Assembly (NCBI GenBank): GCA_014361055.1
Contig: JACIWI010000038.1
Coordinates: forward strand, 1 to 41,466
DNA from: Candidatus Bipolaricaulota bacterium
GTDB taxonomy: Bacteria > Bipolaricaulota > Bipolaricaulia > Bipolaricaulales > Bipolaricaulaceae
DNA length: 41,466 bases
Direction: 5' to 3'
The position numbers and the translations under genes were made by a program. Below, piece by piece: positions 1,740-11,893 of the stretch. Position 1 is the first letter of the stretch. The number at the start of each line of letters is the position of its first letter. The notes below the pieces were generated by a model that ran no database searches, was not told where the DNA came from, and saw nothing but the letters and a program-made list of their open reading frames with translations.

Positions 1740-4628
1740 ATGCGCAGGCTGTGGGCAGCGGTGATCCTCCTCCTGGCCGTGGCCGGAGGGGGGCTGGCGG
1801 GAAAAGGGCCGCTCAACCTGGCCCTCGTCTGGCATCAGCATCAGCCCCTTTATTGGAACCGGCTCACCGGGGAGTACGAGCTCCCTTGGGTGCGGGTGCA
1901 CGGGGTGCAGGAGTACATCGACTCCCCGCGCATCCTCGCCGAGTTCCCGGGGATTAGGGTGGCCTACAACCTCCAGCCGAGCCTGCTTCGGCAACTTCTG
2001 GACTACGTGGAGATCACGGAGGGGGAGCGGGCGAGAGGCGGGCTCTACGAGCTCATCGGCGCGGTGGACAACCACCTCCGGTGGGTTTGGGCCCTGATTC
2101 ACGATCCGGCCACGCTCATCCCGGAAGACAGAAAGGCCATGCAGGCCCAGTTTTTCTGGATCAACCCGTACATGCTCCGGCCGGGCGGAAAATACTTCGA
2201 TCCCCGCTATGCCGAGCTCAACCGCCTAAAGGACGTGCGACCCCTCACCGACCAAGAGCTCATCGATGCCGCTGGGCTCTTCCTCCTGTGGCAGATCTCC
2301 CCCGAGCTCCACCAGGAGCTTGGGGTGGCCGATCTGCAGGGAAAGGCTGGGTTCACCGCGGACGACATCGTCCGCCTCATCCGCGCCCAGCACACGGTCC
2401 TCTCGCGGGTGGTGGACGCCTACCGGGAGATCCAGGCCGGGGGGAGCGAGCTCATCACCAGCCCGTTCTACCACCCGATCCTGCCCCTCCTCGCCGAACG
2501 GGGCTGGGACGAAGACGTGCTCGGACAGCTCGCCCAGGCTCAGGCTCAGCACGTACGGCTGTTCGGGGTCCCGGCGATGGGTGCCTGGCCGCCGGAGCAG
2601 GCCGTTTCCGAGCGGGCCCTCGCCCTCTTCGGGGAGGCCAGCTTCCTCTGGACGGTGGCCGACGAGTGGACGTTGGCCGGAGCCCTCGGCCGCTCGCCGT
2701 CCCGGGCCGAGCTGACGTGCGCCTACCGGTTCGGGGACATCGCGGTTCTCTTCCGGGACCACAACCTATCCGACAAGATCAGTTTTGCCTACGGGAACAA
2801 ACCCACCGCGGAGGCGGTGGCCGACTTCATGGACGAGGTCCGGCGGACCTGGGAGGGCCTGGACGCCCCAGAGGAGCACGTCCTGGTGGTGGCCCTGGAC
2901 GGGGAGAACTGGATGTTCATGGCCGGTTACCCCGACAACGGTCGGGAGTTTTTGCGGGCCCTTTACCAGGCCCTCTCCCAGGCCGATTGGGTGCGGACCG
3001 TGACCCCGGCCGAGTACCTCGCCGCCCATCCGGCCCGGGCCGTGCTCGCCCTGGTCCCCACCGGCTCCTGGGCCGGGGACCTTTCCACCTGGGGTGGCGA
3101 GCCCGAGGAGGATGAGGCCTGGGCCCGGCTCGCCGCCGCCCGGGAGGCGGTCTTTGCTCGGGCGGCCAATGAGGCCGTCCTCGATGCCCTGTACGCGGCC
3201 GAGGGGTCGGACTGGTTCTGGTGGTACGGGACGGACCAGGATTCCGGGACCGATGACCTTTTCGACTGGCTCATGAAGGCCCACCTCGTGGGGGCTTATC
3301 GGGCCGCCGGCTACAGCGACCAAGAGATCCCCCAGGTCCTCTTCCTTCGCCTGCGGATCCCCATCTCCGCGAGCCTTGGCGAGGTGAAGCCCACCCTGGA
3401 CGGGAGGGTGAGCGCTCCTGGGGAGTGGGCGGAGGCGGTGACCATCCCCGGCCAGGGGGCGATCCGCCAGGCCGCCGTGGCCTACGGCGAGACCTACCTC
3501 TATGTCCGCGTGGACCTGGATCCCCAGGCCTCCGAGTGGATTGGGAAGGACGCCAAGCTCCTCCTCTACGCCACGGGCAAGCCCGGGGAGCTGGCCAACA
3601 TCACCACCCGCCATACCGGGGATCAGCTCGGGTCCGCCCTTGGATCGGCGGTGGAGCTCGATTTCGCCAAGGTGAAGAGCGACGGTTCGGGCTATGTGTT
3701 TCGTTACGCTGCCGACGGCAAGGGCGGCTGGCGTTTGAGCTCCCCCATCCGGACCCTCCTTTTCCGCAAGGCCCAGGTTGAGGAGGCCGTGGAGTTCCAG
3801 GTCCCGTTCGAGGAACTTGGGGTGGAGCCTGGCCAGAGCCTTGTCCTCGTCCTGACCTTGGAGCGGCCGGGCGAGCTCCTCGGGCAAGCTCCGGAGCGGC
3901 CGCTTTGGGCCCGCATCCCCACCCTCATCCAAGGGGTGGAGGTGTGGGCGATGGAGGATCCGGCCGGGGACGACCACGGCCCCGGGACCTACGTGTACCC
4001 CTTGAACGCCGTGTTCGCCCAGCCCGGTCTGTTCGACCTCCTCCGCTACGCCGTCTACGACGCCGGCGACCGTTGGCAGCTGGCGTTCGAGTTCCCCGTG
4101 CTTCCCAACCCCTGGAACGGGCCCCACGGGTTCTCCCACCCCATCATCTACCTGTACCTCGACGTGGCCGCGGGCGGCCGGACCGATTCTCACGAGGAGG
4201 GCAAGGCCGCCCAGGTGGCCTTCGGCCCGGCCCATCCCTGGGACTACTTCCTGAAGATCGCGGGCTGGCCCGCCTACGGCCGGCACCTCTGGACCGCGGC
4301 GGGCGAGGGACCGTTCCTCGTGGAGGTGGCCTCCGACCCCAAGCGGGGGAGGATCATCGTCACCATCGCCAAATCCCTCGTCCCGGAGATCCGGGGCTGG
4401 CACTACGTGCTCGTGGGCTCCCAGGACGGATACGGCCCGAATCACCTCCGGCCGGTGGGGAAGACCGCGGGCGAGTGGGTGGGCGGAGGCTGCCCGGATC
4501 CCCTGTGGGCGCCGCAGATCTACGACTACCTGGTGCCGGCAGGGGCTTCTCAAGAGGAGCTCCTTTCCGCCTATGACCCGGCCGGTCGGCGCTACGCCAC
4601 GCTCGTGCCGGTGGAGGTGCGCTGGTGA
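1740..4628 (+). CDS. Secreted GH57 amylopullulanase-like glycoside hydrolase with glucodextranase-type C-terminal module
   Basis: This 962-residue protein starts with a signal peptide (about residues 1-21). The GH57 catalytic domain follows, with region 1 HQHQP (32-36), a GAWPPEQAVSE motif whose Glu286 fits the nucleophile, and ALDGENW whose Asp387 fits the acid/base. The order and the DGEN form match amylopullulanase-type GH57 enzymes, which cut alpha-1,4 and often alpha-1,6 glucan bonds. Around residues 560-710 is a DOMON/CBM9-like beta domain. Residues about 725-945 (EDPAGDDHGPGTYVYP, then an FDLLRYAVYD stretch) match the carbohydrate-binding C-terminal module of glucodextranases. It probably acts outside the cytoplasm on starch or pullulan. 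The SD (GGGAGGTGA, 1728-1736) overlaps the stop of the preceding gene. Its own stop overlaps the next gene's GTG by 4 nt. No S-layer anchor is evident. Confidence 0.88.
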   Translation: MRRLWAAVILLLAVAGGGLAGKGPLNLALVWHQHQPLYWNRLTGEYELPWVRVHGVQEYIDSPRILAEFPGIRVAYNLQPSLLRQLLDYVEITEGERARGGLYELIGAVDNHLRWVWALIHDPATLIPEDRKAMQAQFFWINPYMLRPGGKYFDPRYAELNRLKDVRPLTDQELIDAAGLFLLWQISPELHQELGVADLQGKAGFTADDIVRLIRAQHTVLSRVVDAYREIQAGGSELITSPFYHPILPLLAERGWDEDVLGQLAQAQAQHVRLFGVPAMGAWPPEQAVSERALALFGEASFLWTVADEWTLAGALGRSPSRAELTCAYRFGDIAVLFRDHNLSDKISFAYGNKPTAEAVADFMDEVRRTWEGLDAPEEHVLVVALDGENWMFMAGYPDNGREFLRALYQALSQADWVRTVTPAEYLAAHPARAVLALVPTGSWAGDLSTWGGEPEEDEAWARLAAAREAVFARAANEAVLDALYAAEGSDWFWWYGTDQDSGTDDLFDWLMKAHLVGAYRAAGYSDQEIPQVLFLRLRIPISASLGEVKPTLDGRVSAPGEWAEAVTIPGQGAIRQAAVAYGETYLYVRVDLDPQASEWIGKDAKLLLYATGKPGELANITTRHTGDQLGSALGSAVELDFAKVKSDGSGYVFRYAADGKGGWRLSSPIRTLLFRKAQVEEAVEFQVPFEELGVEPGQSLVLVLTLERPGELLGQAPERPLWARIPTLIQGVEVWAMEDPAGDDHGPGTYVYPLNAVFAQPGLFDLLRYAVYDAGDRWQLAFEFPVLPNPWNGPHGFSHPIIYLYLDVAAGGRTDSHEEGKAAQVAFGPAHPWDYFLKIAGWPAYGRHLWTAAGEGPFLVEVASDPKRGRIIVTIAKSLVPEIRGWHYVLVGSQDGYGPNHLRPVGKTAGEWVGGGCPDPLWAPQIYDYLVPAGASQEELLSAYDPAGRRYATLVPVEVRW

Positions 4629-6760
4629 AGCGGAAGTTCGGAATCGCGGTCCTGATCTTGAGTGCGCTGCTATTGGGCGGGCTAGCTCAGGAGGTTGAGT
4701 GTCCAGGCTTAAAGGTAGCCGTCACCTTTGGTTACACTCCGCTGGAAGATGAAACCGTCACCTCGGTGAGCCTGCGCGGCTCGTTCAACACCTGGGGCGA
4801 ATGGCCCATGGAAGAACAGCCCGACGGCTCCTGGGCCATCACCGTTTGCCTGGAGCCCGGAACCCATCAGTACAAGTTTTTCATCAACGGGCGATGGCCC
4901 CGGGACATGGCCACCGCCCGCGGCGGCGGCCCGGTCGATCCTCAGGCCGACGGCTACGTTGACGACGGGTTCGGGGGCCAAAATGCTATACGCATTGTCA
5001 AGCCGGTTCTCGTAGGACCTTCCCCGATGTACGACCCCCATGACCCCGCGTACCTGTGCATCGCCGACGATCGTCTCGTGCTGCGCTTACGGACAGCGCC
5101 CGGTCAAGTGGGGTCGGTCCGCCTGGTCACCGATCAGGGCGAGTGGCCCATGGAGCGGCAGCTTTGGTGGGACTGGGGCGAAATGTGGCGCATTTCCTTG
5201 CCAGTGTTCGAATCGTTGAACTATTACTTCGTCGGCACCCTCATCGACGGCTCGGAGTTCACCGTACCGGACGATCCCTCCGAGCCCTTCTCCTTCGATG
5301 GCGTCGACCGCTTCCCTCAGCTTAAATGGGTGAGCCAAGGGGTTGCCTACCAGATCTTCCCCGACCGTTTCCATAATGGGGATCCGGAAAACGATGTGCT
5401 GGCCCTCCAAACCGACGAATTCTTCTATAACGAGCTCTGGACCAAGGGGGGGCCTGTCCTTTCCTCTTGGAGCGATCCGATCACCCCAGAGCATTGTTGC
5501 CACCAGTATTTCGGCGGTGACCTCGCTGGGATCATGGAAAAACTTGACTACCTGAGCGAACTTGGGATAACCATCCTCTACCTAAACCCCGTCTTCGACT
5601 CGGGCAGCGCTCACGGCTACGACACCCGCGACTACCTCAAGGTGAGCCCAAAGTTCGGCACCGAAGCCGATCTGAGGCGGCTTTTGGACGAAGCCCATGC
5701 CCGGGGCATGCGCGTGATCTTCGACTTTGTCCCCAACCACACTGGGATAAGCTTCTGGGCATTTCTGGACGTGGCGGTGAGGGGGCCAGAGAGCCCCTAT
5801 TGGGACTGGTACTTCGTCCGCGAGTGGCCTTTTCTCCTCGGCGACGGCAATGCCTATGAGGGTTGGTGGGGACTGGGAAGCCTCCCCAAACTGAACACCG
5901 CGGGCCCCGAAGTGAAAGCTTACCTCTTCGATGTAGTGGGCTACTGGTTGGACTTCGGGTTTGACGGGTTCAGGGTAGACGTGCCCAACGAGATCATCAA
6001 CGCCCATGGCTTCTTCTCTGAGCTGCGGGAGCTCGTGAAAGCCCGCCATCCCGAGGCCTATATGGTGGGTGAGATCTGGCAGCTCGATCCTTCCTGGGTG
6101 CAGGGCGATCAGTTCGACTCCCTCATGAACTATGCCTTGGGTCGCGACGTGCTGCTCCCCTATGCGCGGGGGAACGCTGACGGGGAGCGCACCTTGGCTG
6201 AGCTCAGCCGCTACTTCGCCACTTACGGGGAGACCGTCGCCGCCATGGGCTTCAACCTCGTGAGCTCCCACGACACGTCGCGCGTTCTCACTGACCTGGG
6301 CGGAGGCGATTTCGGCGAAACCCCTGCCCCTGAGGCCATCAAGCGGCTCCAGCTGCTTTTCACCCTGCTCTCCACCCTGCCGGGGGTCCCCGTGGTCTTC
6401 CAAGGGGATGAGCGGGGCATCTTGGGTGAGAAAGGGTTTTACGATGCCCAGCGCTACCCCATCCAGTGGGATGTGGTGAACGAGGAGCTTCTCGCCCACT
6501 ACATCGGATTGGCTCAGATGCGGCGGGCGATCCCCGCCCTCACGAGTAGCGCAGTCCGCGCCTACGCCGCCAAGGAGGGCGTGCTCGCTTTCTTCCGTGG
6601 GGAGCAAGGCGAGGTGCTCGTTGTCGCCAACAACGCTTCCAGGCTGGCTTCCTTGGAACTTCCCCCTGGAAACTGGCGGCTCGTCGGCGGGGAGGCCATC
6701 TTCCGGGGCCGGGTGGTCGTGCCCCCTGTCCAGGCCTGGATATTGGCGCGGGAGGAGTGA
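4625..6760 (+). CDS. Secreted GH13 alpha-amylase/neopullulanase-like enzyme with N-terminal starch-binding-like domain
   Basis: This 711-residue protein has a signal peptide (MKRKFGIAVLILSALLLGG). A CBM48/AMPK-type domain follows (about 35-125, with GSFNTWGEWP and HQYKFFINGRW), then a second beta domain (about 140-225) and the (beta/alpha)8 barrel from about 235. The GH13 regions are visible: DFVPNH (367-372), GFRVD with nucleophile Asp452, VGEIW with acid/base Glu483, and SSHD with transition-state Asp550. [12 protein letters not shown] is typical of neopullulanase and cyclomaltodextrinase enzymes. It should hydrolyse alpha-glucans outside the cytoplasm and feed oligomers to the importer downstream. 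The GTG start overlaps the upstream TGA (GTGA). A second ATP-independent paralogue without signal peptide lies at 10544-11893. Exact specificity (amylase, neopullulanase or cyclodextrinase) cannot be read from the sequence. Confidence 0.88.
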   Translation: MKRKFGIAVLILSALLLGGLAQEVECPGLKVAVTFGYTPLEDETVTSVSLRGSFNTWGEWPMEEQPDGSWAITVCLEPGTHQYKFFINGRWPRDMATARGGGPVDPQADGYVDDGFGGQNAIRIVKPVLVGPSPMYDPHDPAYLCIADDRLVLRLRTAPGQVGSVRLVTDQGEWPMERQLWWDWGEMWRISLPVFESLNYYFVGTLIDGSEFTVPDDPSEPFSFDGVDRFPQLKWVSQGVAYQIFPDRFHNGDPENDVLALQTDEFFYNELWTKGGPVLSSWSDPITPEHCCHQYFGGDLAGIMEKLDYLSELGITILYLNPVFDSGSAHGYDTRDYLKVSPKFGTEADLRRLLDEAHARGMRVIFDFVPNHTGISFWAFLDVAVRGPESPYWDWYFVREWPFLLGDGNAYEGWWGLGSLPKLNTAGPEVKAYLFDVVGYWLDFGFDGFRVDVPNEIINAHGFFSELRELVKARHPEAYMVGEIWQLDPSWVQGDQFDSLMNYALGRDVLLPYARGNADGERTLAELSRYFATYGETVAAMGFNLVSSHDTSRVLTDLGGGDFGETPAPEAIKRLQLLFTLLSTLPGVPVVFQGDERGILGEKGFYDAQRYPIQWDVVNEELLAHYIGLAQMRRAIPALTSSAVRAYAAKEGVLAFFRGEQGEVLVVANNASRLASLELPPGNWRLVGGEAIFRGRVVVPPVQAWILAREE

Positions 6761-6901
6761 GGTGGATGGACAGCGAAAGGGCCGGGTCGGTCCTCGGCTG
6801 GCAGACCACGAGGAAGGGGGTGAGAACAGCGGGGATAGATGGTAACAGAAAAAGAAGGGAGAGCTAGGCTTAGTTTAATCACAAATGAGGAGGGATACAG
6901 G

Positions 6902-8095
6902 ATGAGGAATTTCGGAATTGCGGTGGTGAGCGTCTTAGTGTTGGGAATGCTGGGCCTGGCCTCCGAGCCGGGGAAGCTCATCGTATGGTGTGACGAGACC
7001 CGAGCACCGGCCCTCACGGAGGCGGCGCAGAAGTTCACCGCCGCCTATGGGGTGCCGGTGGAAGTTGTGGAAGTGCCCTTCGGCGATATCCGGGGTAACC
7101 TGGCCGTCACTGCTCCCACCGGGGAGGGCCCGGACATCATCATCGGCCCCCACGACTGGATCGGCGAACTCATCTACAACGGACTCCTCGAGCCGCTCGT
7201 TCTCCCGGCGGACCTCCTGGCCCAGTTCGACCCGGCGAGCTTGGAGGCCTTCTCCTGGGCCGGGGAGCTGTACGGTCTTCCCTACGCCACCGAGTGTGTG
7301 GCCCTGATCTACAACAAGGATCTGGTGCCCGAGCCACCGGCCACTTTCGAAGAACTGATCGAGATTGCCAAGGCCCTCACGGCGCCCGAGAAGGGACAGT
7401 ACGGCTTCTTGATCCAAGAGCCCGACCCCTATCACACCTTCCCGCTGCACTCCGCCTACGGGGGCTACGTCTTCGGCACCACGTCGGAAGGGACCCTCGA
7501 TCCCTGTGACATCGGCCTGGATAACGAGGGCTCCGTCAAAGGCGCTATGCTTCTGGATCGTTTGGTAAAGGAAAAGGTCGAATTCGCCGGGGCCGACTAC
7601 CAGACCGTGACCGGGCTGTTCAACGAGGGGCTTTTGGCCATGTTCATCGGAGGTCCTTGGACTCTCCCTGGCATCCACGCCGCTGGGATCAATTACGGCG
7701 TCGCCAAGATCCCGCCCATTGAGGGGAACGCTCCGCGGCCATTCACCGGGGTCCAGGGGTTCATGGTCAGTGCCTTCAGCGAGAACAAGCTTCTGGCTAA
7801 CCTGTTTCTCAAGGACTTCCTGGCCACCAAGGAGGTCATGCTCGCCATCTACGAGCGGGGCCAGCGGCCGCCCGCGTATTTGCCCGCCCTGGCGGAGCTC
7901 GCGGACAATCCCGACATCCAGGCGTTCGCGGCCAGTGCTGCTGATGGGATCCCCATGCCCAAGATCCCGGAGATGGCCTCGGTATGGGGTGCTTGGTCGG
8001 ATGCTCTGGAGCTGATCGTCTCCCAGAAGCTCGGTCCTGAGGAGGCGATGAGAAACGCCGCGGAGCAGATCCGCACGCTCCTCGGCTGCAAGTAG
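6902..8095 (+). CDS. malE: Maltodextrin ABC transporter, substrate-binding protein MalE
   Basis: The 397-residue product is a family 1 extracellular solute-binding protein with the MalE layout: KLIVWCDE at the mature N terminus, GPDIIIGPHDW, ALIYNKDLV, FIGGPWTLPG and PFTGVQGFMVS. The signal peptide (about 1-20) ends LGLASEPG with no lipobox Cys, so the protein is probably soluble and periplasmic, which favours a diderm. I chose the ATG at 6902 because GAGGAGGG (6887-6894) sits 7 nt before it. An in-frame ATG at 6839 would add 21 charged residues in front of the signal peptide. The 141-nt leader after the GH13 gene is AT-richer and has a -10-like TTTAAT (6874-6879) without a clear -35, so an extra promoter is possible. 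The signal peptide resembles that of the GH13 enzyme at 4625 (both contain FGIAV). Confidence 0.9.
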   Translation: MRNFGIAVVSVLVLGMLGLASEPGKLIVWCDETRAPALTEAAQKFTAAYGVPVEVVEVPFGDIRGNLAVTAPTGEGPDIIIGPHDWIGELIYNGLLEPLVLPADLLAQFDPASLEAFSWAGELYGLPYATECVALIYNKDLVPEPPATFEELIEIAKALTAPEKGQYGFLIQEPDPYHTFPLHSAYGGYVFGTTSEGTLDPCDIGLDNEGSVKGAMLLDRLVKEKVEFAGADYQTVTGLFNEGLLAMFIGGPWTLPGIHAAGINYGVAKIPPIEGNAPRPFTGVQGFMVSAFSENKLLANLFLKDFLATKEVMLAIYERGQRPPAYLPALAELADNPDIQAFAASAADGIPMPKIPEMASVWGAWSDALELIVSQKLGPEEAMRNAAEQIRTLLGCK

Positions 8096-8140: not shown

Positions 8141-9286
8141 ATGAGCTGGAGGAAGATCCTTGCCCAAGGAGCGACCATCCTGGCCCTGGGCCTCCTCGAC
8201 GCCTTGGGCATCTGGGCCTTCTCCTCCCTCCTCTTGCGAGGGGAGTACTGGATGGCTGCCGGGTTGGCCGTCGCCCTCGGCCTCATCAACTGGATCTACT
8301 TCTCCAAGCGTACTTATCCCCTTAAGTACCTGTTCCCAGGGCTTTTCTTCCTTGTGCTGTTTGTGCTTTACCCCATTGGCTACAACATCTACATCGCGTT
8401 CACCAACTACGGTACTGGGCATATCCTCTCTAAGAAGCAGGCGATCACTCAGATCGAAAGCCGGCTGTATCTCCCCCCGGATGCCGAGACGTTCGGCTAT
8501 GTGGCATTTCAGGAAGAGGGGGGAACGGAGTTCGCGTTCCTCTTTTACCCCAAGGAGGGGCCCGTCTTGTTCGCCCGCGCCGGGAGACTCATCCCTGTAG
8601 CCCCCGGCGACCCCGGCTTCTTAGACCAGGACGGCGATGGGATCGTGGACGGGGTGGAAGGGTATAGGCGCCTGGGGCTGCCCGAGGTGGTCCAGAACCT
8701 CTCCACATTCCAGGCCATGGAGTTCCCATACGGAGAGAGAATCCTGCGGATGACCTCGCTCCAGGGATTCGCCGCCTTTGAGCACCGCTACCGCTACGAC
8801 CCGGAAAACGACGTCATGGTGGATCTGCTTTCGGGCACCGTGTATCGGCCGGTGGAGGGCTTCTTCACCTCCCAGGACGGAAAGACCCTCCTCCCTGGGT
8901 TCACGATCGTCGTCGGGTGGAGGAACTTCTTCGCCCTGGTGACCAACCCACAGATCTCCGGCCCGTTCTTCCAGGTCTTTGCTTGGACGTTCGCTTACGC
9001 GTTCTTTTCGGTCCTCCTCACATTCGCCCTAGGGCTCTTTCTGGCCTACCACCTCAACAATCCCTACTTGCGATTTCGAAGGGCCTACCGGATGCTCCTC
9101 ATCGTGCCATACGCCATCCCGGCCTTCATCTCCGTCCTCATGTGGCGCGGGTTCTTCAACACCGAGGTTGGGGTCTTCAATCAGATCCTGTACAGCCTGT
9201 TTGAGGTCAAGATCCCGTGGCTCCAAGACCCGTTTTGGGCAAAGGTGGCGTTGCTTCTCAACAACCTGTGGCTCGGCTTCCCCTAA
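8141..9286 (+). CDS. malF: Maltodextrin ABC permease MalF, N-terminal part ended by an in-frame stop
   Basis: This 381-residue open part of MalF has transmembrane segments near 8-29, 38-55 and 64-85 (YLFPGLFFLVLFVLYPIGY). A soluble insert (about 90-255) corresponds to the MalF P2 region. Membrane segments resume from about 265 (FQVFAWTFAYAFFSVLLTF; MLLIVPYAIPAFISVLMWR). It stops at TAA 9284-9286 directly after NNLWLGFP. The homologous E. coli segment reads WLGYPYMMI, so the stop sits where a conserved Tyr (TAC/TAT) belongs. The same frame continues at 9287 with the rest of MalF, including the EAA loop. As written, this half lacks the loop that contacts the ATPase. An alternative start is ATG 8252, preceded by GGGGAG. 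A sequencing error, a recent nonsense mutation, readthrough or reinitiation are all possible. Confidence 0.82.
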   Translation: MSWRKILAQGATILALGLLDALGIWAFSSLLLRGEYWMAAGLAVALGLINWIYFSKRTYPLKYLFPGLFFLVLFVLYPIGYNIYIAFTNYGTGHILSKKQAITQIESRLYLPPDAETFGYVAFQEEGGTEFAFLFYPKEGPVLFARAGRLIPVAPGDPGFLDQDGDGIVDGVEGYRRLGLPEVVQNLSTFQAMEFPYGERILRMTSLQGFAAFEHRYRYDPENDVMVDLLSGTVYRPVEGFFTSQDGKTLLPGFTIVVGWRNFFALVTNPQISGPFFQVFAWTFAYAFFSVLLTFALGLFLAYHLNNPYLRFRRAYRMLLIVPYAIPAFISVLMWRGFFNTEVGVFNQILYSLFEVKIPWLQDPFWAKVALLLNNLWLGFP

Positions 9287-9697
9287 ATGATGATCATCTC
9301 CCTGGGGGCGCTTCAGTCCATCCCTGAGGAGCTCCATGAGGCGGCCCAGATCGACGGGGCTTCGGCCTGGCAAAGGTTCTGGCGGATCACCTTCCCGCTC
9401 CTTTTGGTGTCCTTGGCACCTCTGCTCATCGGCTCGTTCGCGTTCAACTTCAACAACTTCACGAACATATACCTGCTCACGGAGGGCCGGCCGCCCATCC
9501 CCGGGGCTCAGACCCCGGCCGGGTCGACGGATATCCTCATCTCCTATACCTACAGGCTGGCCTTCGAGGGGCAACGGGGGAACCAGTATGGCCTCGCCTC
9601 CGCCGTGTCCATCCTCATCTTCCTCATCATCGGCACCATCAGCTGGATCAACTTCCGGTTCACCCGGGCCTTGGAGGAGGTGTCCGAGAATGTATAG
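9287..9697 (+). CDS. malF: MalF C-terminal part (EAA loop and last membrane segments), same frame as the upstream part
   Basis: This 136-residue piece begins [13 protein letters not shown] immediately after the TAA of the N-terminal part, with no frame change. It carries the permease EAA loop ([14 protein letters not shown]), which docks onto the transporter ATPase. It also has the SFAFNFNNF and YTYRLAFEG signatures of MalF and the last two membrane helices. Together the two parts plus one residue make about 518 residues, the normal MalF length (E. coli MalF is 514). The ATG ATG abutting the stop could allow termination-reinitiation and a two-piece permease. No separate SD is apparent. malG starts 8 nt inside its 3' end. 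Function as a separate peptide is unproven. Confidence 0.8.
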
Positions 9698-10547
9698 GCG
9701 CCCGACCTTGGTGGGCACCATCATTCGGCACCTCATCATCTGGATCGCCATCGCGTTCGCCCTGTTCCCCGTTGTGTGGATCCTGTCGGCCTCGTTCAAC
9801 CCCACCAACACCTTGGTCGGCCAACGGCTTATACCTCGAAACCCCACAATAGTTCACTACCTTGAGTTATTTAATAATCCTCAGCACCCGTTCCCAATAT
9901 GGATTGCAAATAGCGTTAAGGTTGCAGGGCTTACTGCACTTTTCAGTGTCATCTTGACTGCACTTGGAGCTTATGCCTTCTCCCGGTTTCGGTTCCGAGG
10001 GCGCCGAGGCGGGCTTATGGCCCTCCTCCTCGTGCAGATGTTCCCTCAGATGCTGGCCATGGTGGCGCTGTATATCCTCTTGCTCAGGCTGGGGGACTTC
10101 GTCCCGGCCATTGGCCTGAACACGCATACCGGACTGATCCTGGTGTACCTGGGAGGAGCGCTCGGATTCAACACCTGGCTAATGAAGGGGTACTTTGACA
10201 CCATCCCCCGGTCGCTGGAGGAGTCGGCCATGATCGATGGGGCTACGCACTTTCAGGCCTTCACCAGGATCATCCTGCCTCTTGCCCGGCCCATCCTGGC
10301 CGTGGTGTTCATCCTCCAGTTCATCGCTACATACTCGGAGTACCTTTTGGCGAGTGTCCTGCTCACCGGCGTTCAGCGGTACACCCTGGCCGTGGGCTTG
10401 CGCCTGTTCATTACAGGACAGTACACCACTCGCTGGGGGGTGTTTGCAGCCGCCTCCATTATTGGGGCCCTCCCCATCGTGCTCATCTTCTACCTCCTGC
10501 AAAACCAACTCATCTCGGGGCTTACCCGCGGAGCCGTCAAGGGATGA
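9690..10547 (+). CDS. malG: Maltodextrin ABC permease MalG
   Basis: The 285-residue inner-membrane permease has six predicted helices, starting [18 protein letters not shown]. It carries the EAA loop [15 protein letters not shown] followed by RIILPLARP, and ends in the MalG-like [15 protein letters not shown]. The start ATG 9690 follows GGAGGAGG (about 9673-9680) and overlaps malF by 8 nt; the frame is open further upstream, but that part is antisense noise of malF. It should form the MalFG channel fed by MalE. No ATPase gene is nearby, so an unlinked MalK/MsmK-type protein must drive it. An internal stretch (about 9830-9985) is much more AT-rich and uses A/T-ending codons unlike the rest of the gene. 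The protein it encodes still fits MalG. The stop overlaps the next gene (ATGA). Confidence 0.92.
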
Positions 10548-11893
10548 ACCCGCCGAAGTGGGTGCAGGGCGCAGTCTTCTACCAGATCTTCCCCGATCGG
10601 TTCCGGAACGGGGACCCGCGGAACGATCCGCCCGGAGCAAGGCCCTGGGGGGAGCTCCCTGACCGAACAAGCTTTTTCGGCGGGGATCTTTGGGGAATCC
10701 TGGAGAAGCTGGATTACCTCGAGGACCTTGGGATAACCGCCCTCTACCTCACCCCGATCTTCGAGGCCCCTACCAACCACAAGTACGACACCGAGGACTA
10801 TTTCCAGGTGGATCCGGCCTTCGGGGGGAACGAGGCCCTGCAGGAGCTCGTAAGGGCCCTACACGCTCGCGGCATGAGAATCGTGCTTGACGGAGTTTTT
10901 AACCACTGCGGGGAACGGCATCCCTTCTTCCAGGACGTGCTCCGGCAGGGCCGGGCCTCACCCTACTGGGACTGGTTTACCGTCTACGGCGAAAGGATCC
11001 TCCGCGACCCGGAGCCGAACTACGCTTGTTTTGCCGGGGTCCCCTCCATGCCGGAATGGAACCACGCCAACCCTAAGGTACGCGAGTATCTCCTCTCGGT
11101 GGTGCGCCACTGGCTTTTGGAATACGAGATCGACGGCTGGCGCCTTGATACCGGCGATTACCTTTCCCCGGACTTCGTGCGCGAGCTCTACCACGCGGCT
11201 AAGGGGATCAACCCGGAGGCCTACATCGTGGGCGAGGTATGGGGCATCGCCGCCTCCTGGTTCAAGCACGGGGCGCTCGATGGGGTGATGCACTACAAGC
11301 TTTGGGAGGGGCTCGTCCACTTCTTCGCCCAAGGGACATGGGACGCCCGCCGGTTCGCCGACTACGTCTACAGCCTGTGGCGTAGTTACCCGGAGGAGAA
11401 TGGGTTCGCCTGCTATACGCTCCTTGGAAGCCACGACAAACCTCGCTTCCTAACCCTTTGCCAGGGGGACAAACGGCGCCTGCTTCTGGCCGCGGCCTTT
11501 CTGTTCAGCTTTCCCGGTGCACCGGCAATCTACTATGGGGACGAAATCGGGATGGAGGGCGGGGAAGATCCGGACTGCCGCCGCTGCTTCGCCTGGGACC
11601 AAAACCTATGGGACCAGGAGACCCTCGCGGCCTTCCGGGAGCTTGTGCGCCTACGCCGGGGTGAGCCGGCCCTGCGCGGTGGAGAGTTACACTTCGTCGG
11701 GGCGCACGGGCGAACGCTTTGCCTTCGACGGACCCTCGTGGGGGAGGAGGTCCTCGTTGCCCTGAACGCGGGGGACGGGGAACAAGCGTTTCCCCTTCCG
11801 GGAAGGTTTCGGGATCTGCTCGCCGGAGAGGAGGTATCGGGCGAGGTCGCCCTGCCGCCGTGGAGCTTTCGGATCCTCAAACGGCGAAGGTGA
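10544..11893 (+). CDS. Cytoplasmic GH13 maltodextrin-cleaving enzyme (alpha-glucosidase/neopullulanase-like)
   Basis: The 449-residue GH13 enzyme has no signal peptide and no N-terminal binding domain. The barrel opens at once with [14 protein letters not shown]. Catalytic residues are Asp202 (GWRLD), Glu231 (VGEVW) and Asp298 (GSHDKPR); DGVFNH is region I. It should split imported maltooligosaccharides or cyclodextrins in the cytoplasm. It is the last gene of the locus, overlapping malG by ATGA, and its stop lies 23 nt from the convergent pfkA stop. It is clearly a paralogue of the secreted GH13 enzyme at 4625 (shared FPDRF.NGDP, FGGDL and PYWDW blocks). I do not assign malZ or nplT because the specificity cannot be read. 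Confidence 0.88.

Follow-up and report, generated by a model that had tools for sequence, protein, structure and literature searches.

An in-frame TAA codon lies in the interior of malF, a gene for a maltose ABC permease, in a genome of Candidatus Bipolaricaulota bacterium (family Bipolaricaulaceae, assembly GCA_014361055.1), and the codons ATG ATG follow it directly. This raises the question of whether the permease has been inactivated, recently or long ago, whether the base has been called incorrectly, whether the gene is expressed as two pieces, or whether the stop is decoded as an amino acid. The locus belongs to contig JACIWI010000038.1, of which positions 1 to 41,466 (forward strand) were analysed; this whole stretch of 41,466 nucleotides is referred to below as the window. 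The source genome comprises 1.56 Mb in 150 contigs and is 92% complete.

The interrupted gene and its surroundings

The order of genes around the interruption is malE-like, malF and malG, with alpha-amylase-family genes on either side, which places malF in an operon context with malE and malG. The features are as follows.

4625 to 6760, plus strand: alpha-amylase-family gene, upstream of malE (Pfam PF00128, 8.8e-69)
6839 to 8095, plus strand: malE-like gene for a sugar-binding protein, intact (Pfam SBP_bac_8, 1.2e-42; NCBIfam MalE NF007011, 276 bits, just below the cut-off of 291)
8141 to 9697, plus strand: malF, maltose ABC permease gene with one interior TAA (NCBIfam MalF NF008232, 430 bits when read through, cut-off 392)
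8141 to 9286, plus strand: 5' piece of malF, 381 codons plus the TAA (TM_PBP2_N and MalF_P2 domain matches)
9284 to 9286, plus strand: in-frame TAA, codon 382 of malF (TAC, Tyr, in the congener; Tyr in all 104 other homologues read)
9287 to 9697, plus strand: 3' piece of malF, 136 codons, starting with ATG ATG within a transmembrane helix (includes the EAA loop and the C-terminal helices; dN/dS of 0.015 relative to the congener)
9690 to 10547, plus strand: malG, intact, its ATG overlapping the end of malF (NCBIfam MalG NF008231, 274 bits, cut-off 261)
10544 to 11893, plus strand: second alpha-amylase-family gene, downstream of malG (Pfam PF00128, 9.2e-75)

The malF frame opens with ATG at 8141, runs for 381 codons to the TAA, continues as ATG ATG ATC ATC and remains open to the TAG at 9695–9697, giving 518 codons ahead of the terminal stop, with the interior TAA counted. 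The read-through protein passes the MalF profile, and each half scores under the same cut-off (230 and 182 bits); searched on the genome, NF008232 gave 425.3 bits with one TAA inside the match. The permease core (PF00528) and the N-terminal domain (PF16296) were both found above their cut-offs, and the P2 domain (PF14785) under its own (26.9 vs 34.4). This was the single MalF match in the genome, which was searched for a second intact copy.

The motif reads WLGFP-stop-MM here and WLGFPYMM in homologues, so that the TAA falls exactly at the tyrosine. Frame and profile scores thus bear out the earlier note, which had described an in-frame TAA at the motif tyrosine of a full-length MalF with ATG ATG abutting it. 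The note had also placed the break just before the EAA loop; the loop does lie downstream, but some 15 residues away, and the cut is inside the preceding transmembrane helix rather than at the loop boundary, with a hydrophobic stretch at about residues 374–388 spanning it in the hydropathy profile.

Comparison with relatives

The one same-genus genome compared (the congener) has malF in the same neighbourhood, with 89% amino-acid identity over 518 residues and about 96% DNA identity over positions 8900–9700. Its gene differs from that of the window in having TAC (Tyr) at codon 382 and an intact frame, and the same ATG ATG follows. The nearest relative therefore carries an intact orthologue, from which a single disabling change separates the gene of the window, as in a recent nonsense pseudogene. 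One member of the family is 100% identical over 3,995 bases to a Candidatus Bipolaricaulota record (MAG-1503), which assigns the family to this phylum. A comparison of malF across relatives, of the kind proposed earlier as a check on the stop, revealed no other interior stop, either in the 24 other family genomes with a match (0 of 24) or in the other matches across the phylum (0 of 39). The interruption is private to the window's genome.

The tyrosine itself occupies the codon-382 column in all 104 other homologues read, which consist of 80 GTDB loci and 24 family loci and include one duplicate record (L021 = L046); the peptide WLGFPYMM served to recruit part of the 80 GTDB loci, which are thus biased toward Tyr, whereas the 24 family loci were recruited otherwise. 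Codon 382 aligns without gaps with Tyr383 of Escherichia coli MalF (PDB 2r6g, chain F), a member of the same family (NF008232) in the MalFGK2 importer, where the motif is WLGYPYMM; the residue that is Tyr383 in E. coli is a stop in the window. The maltose site of MalF is described as bounded by three aromatic residues, one of them Y383, whose mutation is reported to lower transport by over 90% (PMC8134467). A split at codon 382 would bisect a transmembrane helix and drop a substrate contact.

Three of the 16 other family genomes that are at least 90% complete have no MalF match, and therefore the loss of MalF is tolerated in the family.

Age of the stop and selection

Codons 383–518 differ from those of the congener by 19 synonymous changes and one nonsynonymous change (dN 0.0033, dS 0.215, ratio 0.015). 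If translation of these codons had ceased at the time of the split, the branch leading to the window should carry about 33 nonsynonymous changes. If the downstream half is no longer translated, the stop dates from about the final 14% of that branch (95% bound); this bound presumes that the 3' part has not recently recombined, and the patchy divergence of the mal cluster makes that a real caveat. Both halves of malF were under purifying selection until very recently. The argument of the earlier note that an undecayed downstream half speaks against old inactivation is thus upheld and now has numbers attached to it. The undecayed 3' half is also compatible with a malF whose translation continues in some way.

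The divergence of the cluster from the congener is uneven. The dS of malF drops from 0.69 to 0.07 near codon 257, and in the sugar cluster the stretches 2001–4500 and 8300–8800 of the window show patchy divergence, with 76–84% identity in places; the remaining aligned window is mostly 95–99% identical. This suggests homologous recombination or faster change in the sugar cluster. Within malG, positions 9822–9990 are AT-rich (GC about 0.48 vs 0.62–0.65 in the congener) and share only 74% identity with the congener, with flanks mostly above 90%. This patch looks like a small recombinant segment, and no close donor for it was found among 100 phylum genomes.

Explanations of the interior stop

According to our analysis, the interruption is very probably a single C-to-A change: as read from the sequence, a TAC tyrosine codon would have become TAA by one substitution at codon 382. 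The change may be a genuine nonsense mutation of very recent origin, or a strain variant within the sampled population; alternatively, it may be an incorrect consensus base in the assembly. By our own estimate, which was not computed, a real mutation or strain variant is the probable case and a consensus error a possible one of lower probability. One stop, no further decay and restriction to one genome are likewise features of recent pseudogenes with a single nonsense codon and of one-base consensus errors in metagenome-assembled genomes. Frame integrity was sampled from stretches of the genome: 158 kb contained homologues of 41 congener proteins, and among these malF was the only clear disruption, the other flagged rows reflecting contig ends or a 96-codon ORF that may not be a gene. 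The genome's other 62 BPD_transp_1 and 54 ABC_tran matches contained no interruptions. Since the other frames are clean, a generally poor assembly cannot account for the change. If the stop is real, translation would end midway through a transmembrane helix that lines the pore; the 381-residue fragment so released would lack the EAA loop and the final helices, and we infer that the importer would be non-functional.

The abutting ATG ATG invites another reading, in which translation terminates at the TAA and reinitiates at once, the two products together forming a functional MalF. A stop that abuts an ATG has the geometry of translational coupling, and the downstream half is conserved; nevertheless, we consider this reading very improbable. 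No relative shares the split among the 24 family and 39 phylum matches. The ATGs are ordinary Met codons, since the congener has the same Met-Met of the motif without a stop. The upstream sequence, CTGTGGCTCGGCTTCCCC, contains no AGGAGG-like or Shine-Dalgarno-like stretch, and the RNA at the stop folds no better than its shuffles (z = +1.29); no ribosome-binding or coupling signal was thus found, although coupling without a Shine-Dalgarno sequence is conceivable. Moreover, the cut falls within the hydrophobic stretch, and the substrate-contacting tyrosine is absent from both pieces. A version of this reading in which MalF has only just split and still functions, its C-terminal piece being made by reinitiation on the native Met-Met and transport proceeding without the pore tyrosine, is likewise very improbable. 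Thus, among the three options that the earlier note had left side by side, the nonsense mutation and the base error survive, and the two-piece permease loses support owing to the uniqueness of the break, the ordinary nature of the ATGs, the lack of a ribosome-binding site and the position of the cut, within a transmembrane helix and at a substrate-contacting Tyr.

Full-length MalF could also be produced if UAA were decoded as an amino acid, whether by a suppressor tRNA, an altered genetic code or programmed readthrough, and the open and conserved frame past the TAA would agree with this. However, the 46 tRNAs found include none with the anticodon TTA (the genome being about 92% complete, one could have escaped detection, but this is unlikely), and TAA, shared with the congener, terminates three genes of the window. 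The codon does not interrupt frames elsewhere among the BPD_transp_1 and ABC_tran matches, and no RNA structure was found 3' of the stop. With neither a UAA-reading tRNA nor recurrent in-frame TAA, stop reassignment or suppression is most unlikely. An old pseudogene undergoing decay would explain the presence of a stop in the frame, but the single nonsynonymous difference in the 136 downstream codons, against the number expected on the branch, contradicts it, barring a recent recombinational replacement of the 3' part, and malE and malG are intact; we regard old decay as scarcely plausible.

Significance

Both readings of the C-to-A change, as a real mutation and as a consensus error, are ordinary, and a literature search on split MalF or on such consensus errors yielded nothing useful. 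The finding matters little beyond annotation, where gene callers would report two partial permeases at malF, with a possible miscount of transporters. A real mutation would provide an example of the loss of a sugar importer in a family of which several members are already without MalF.
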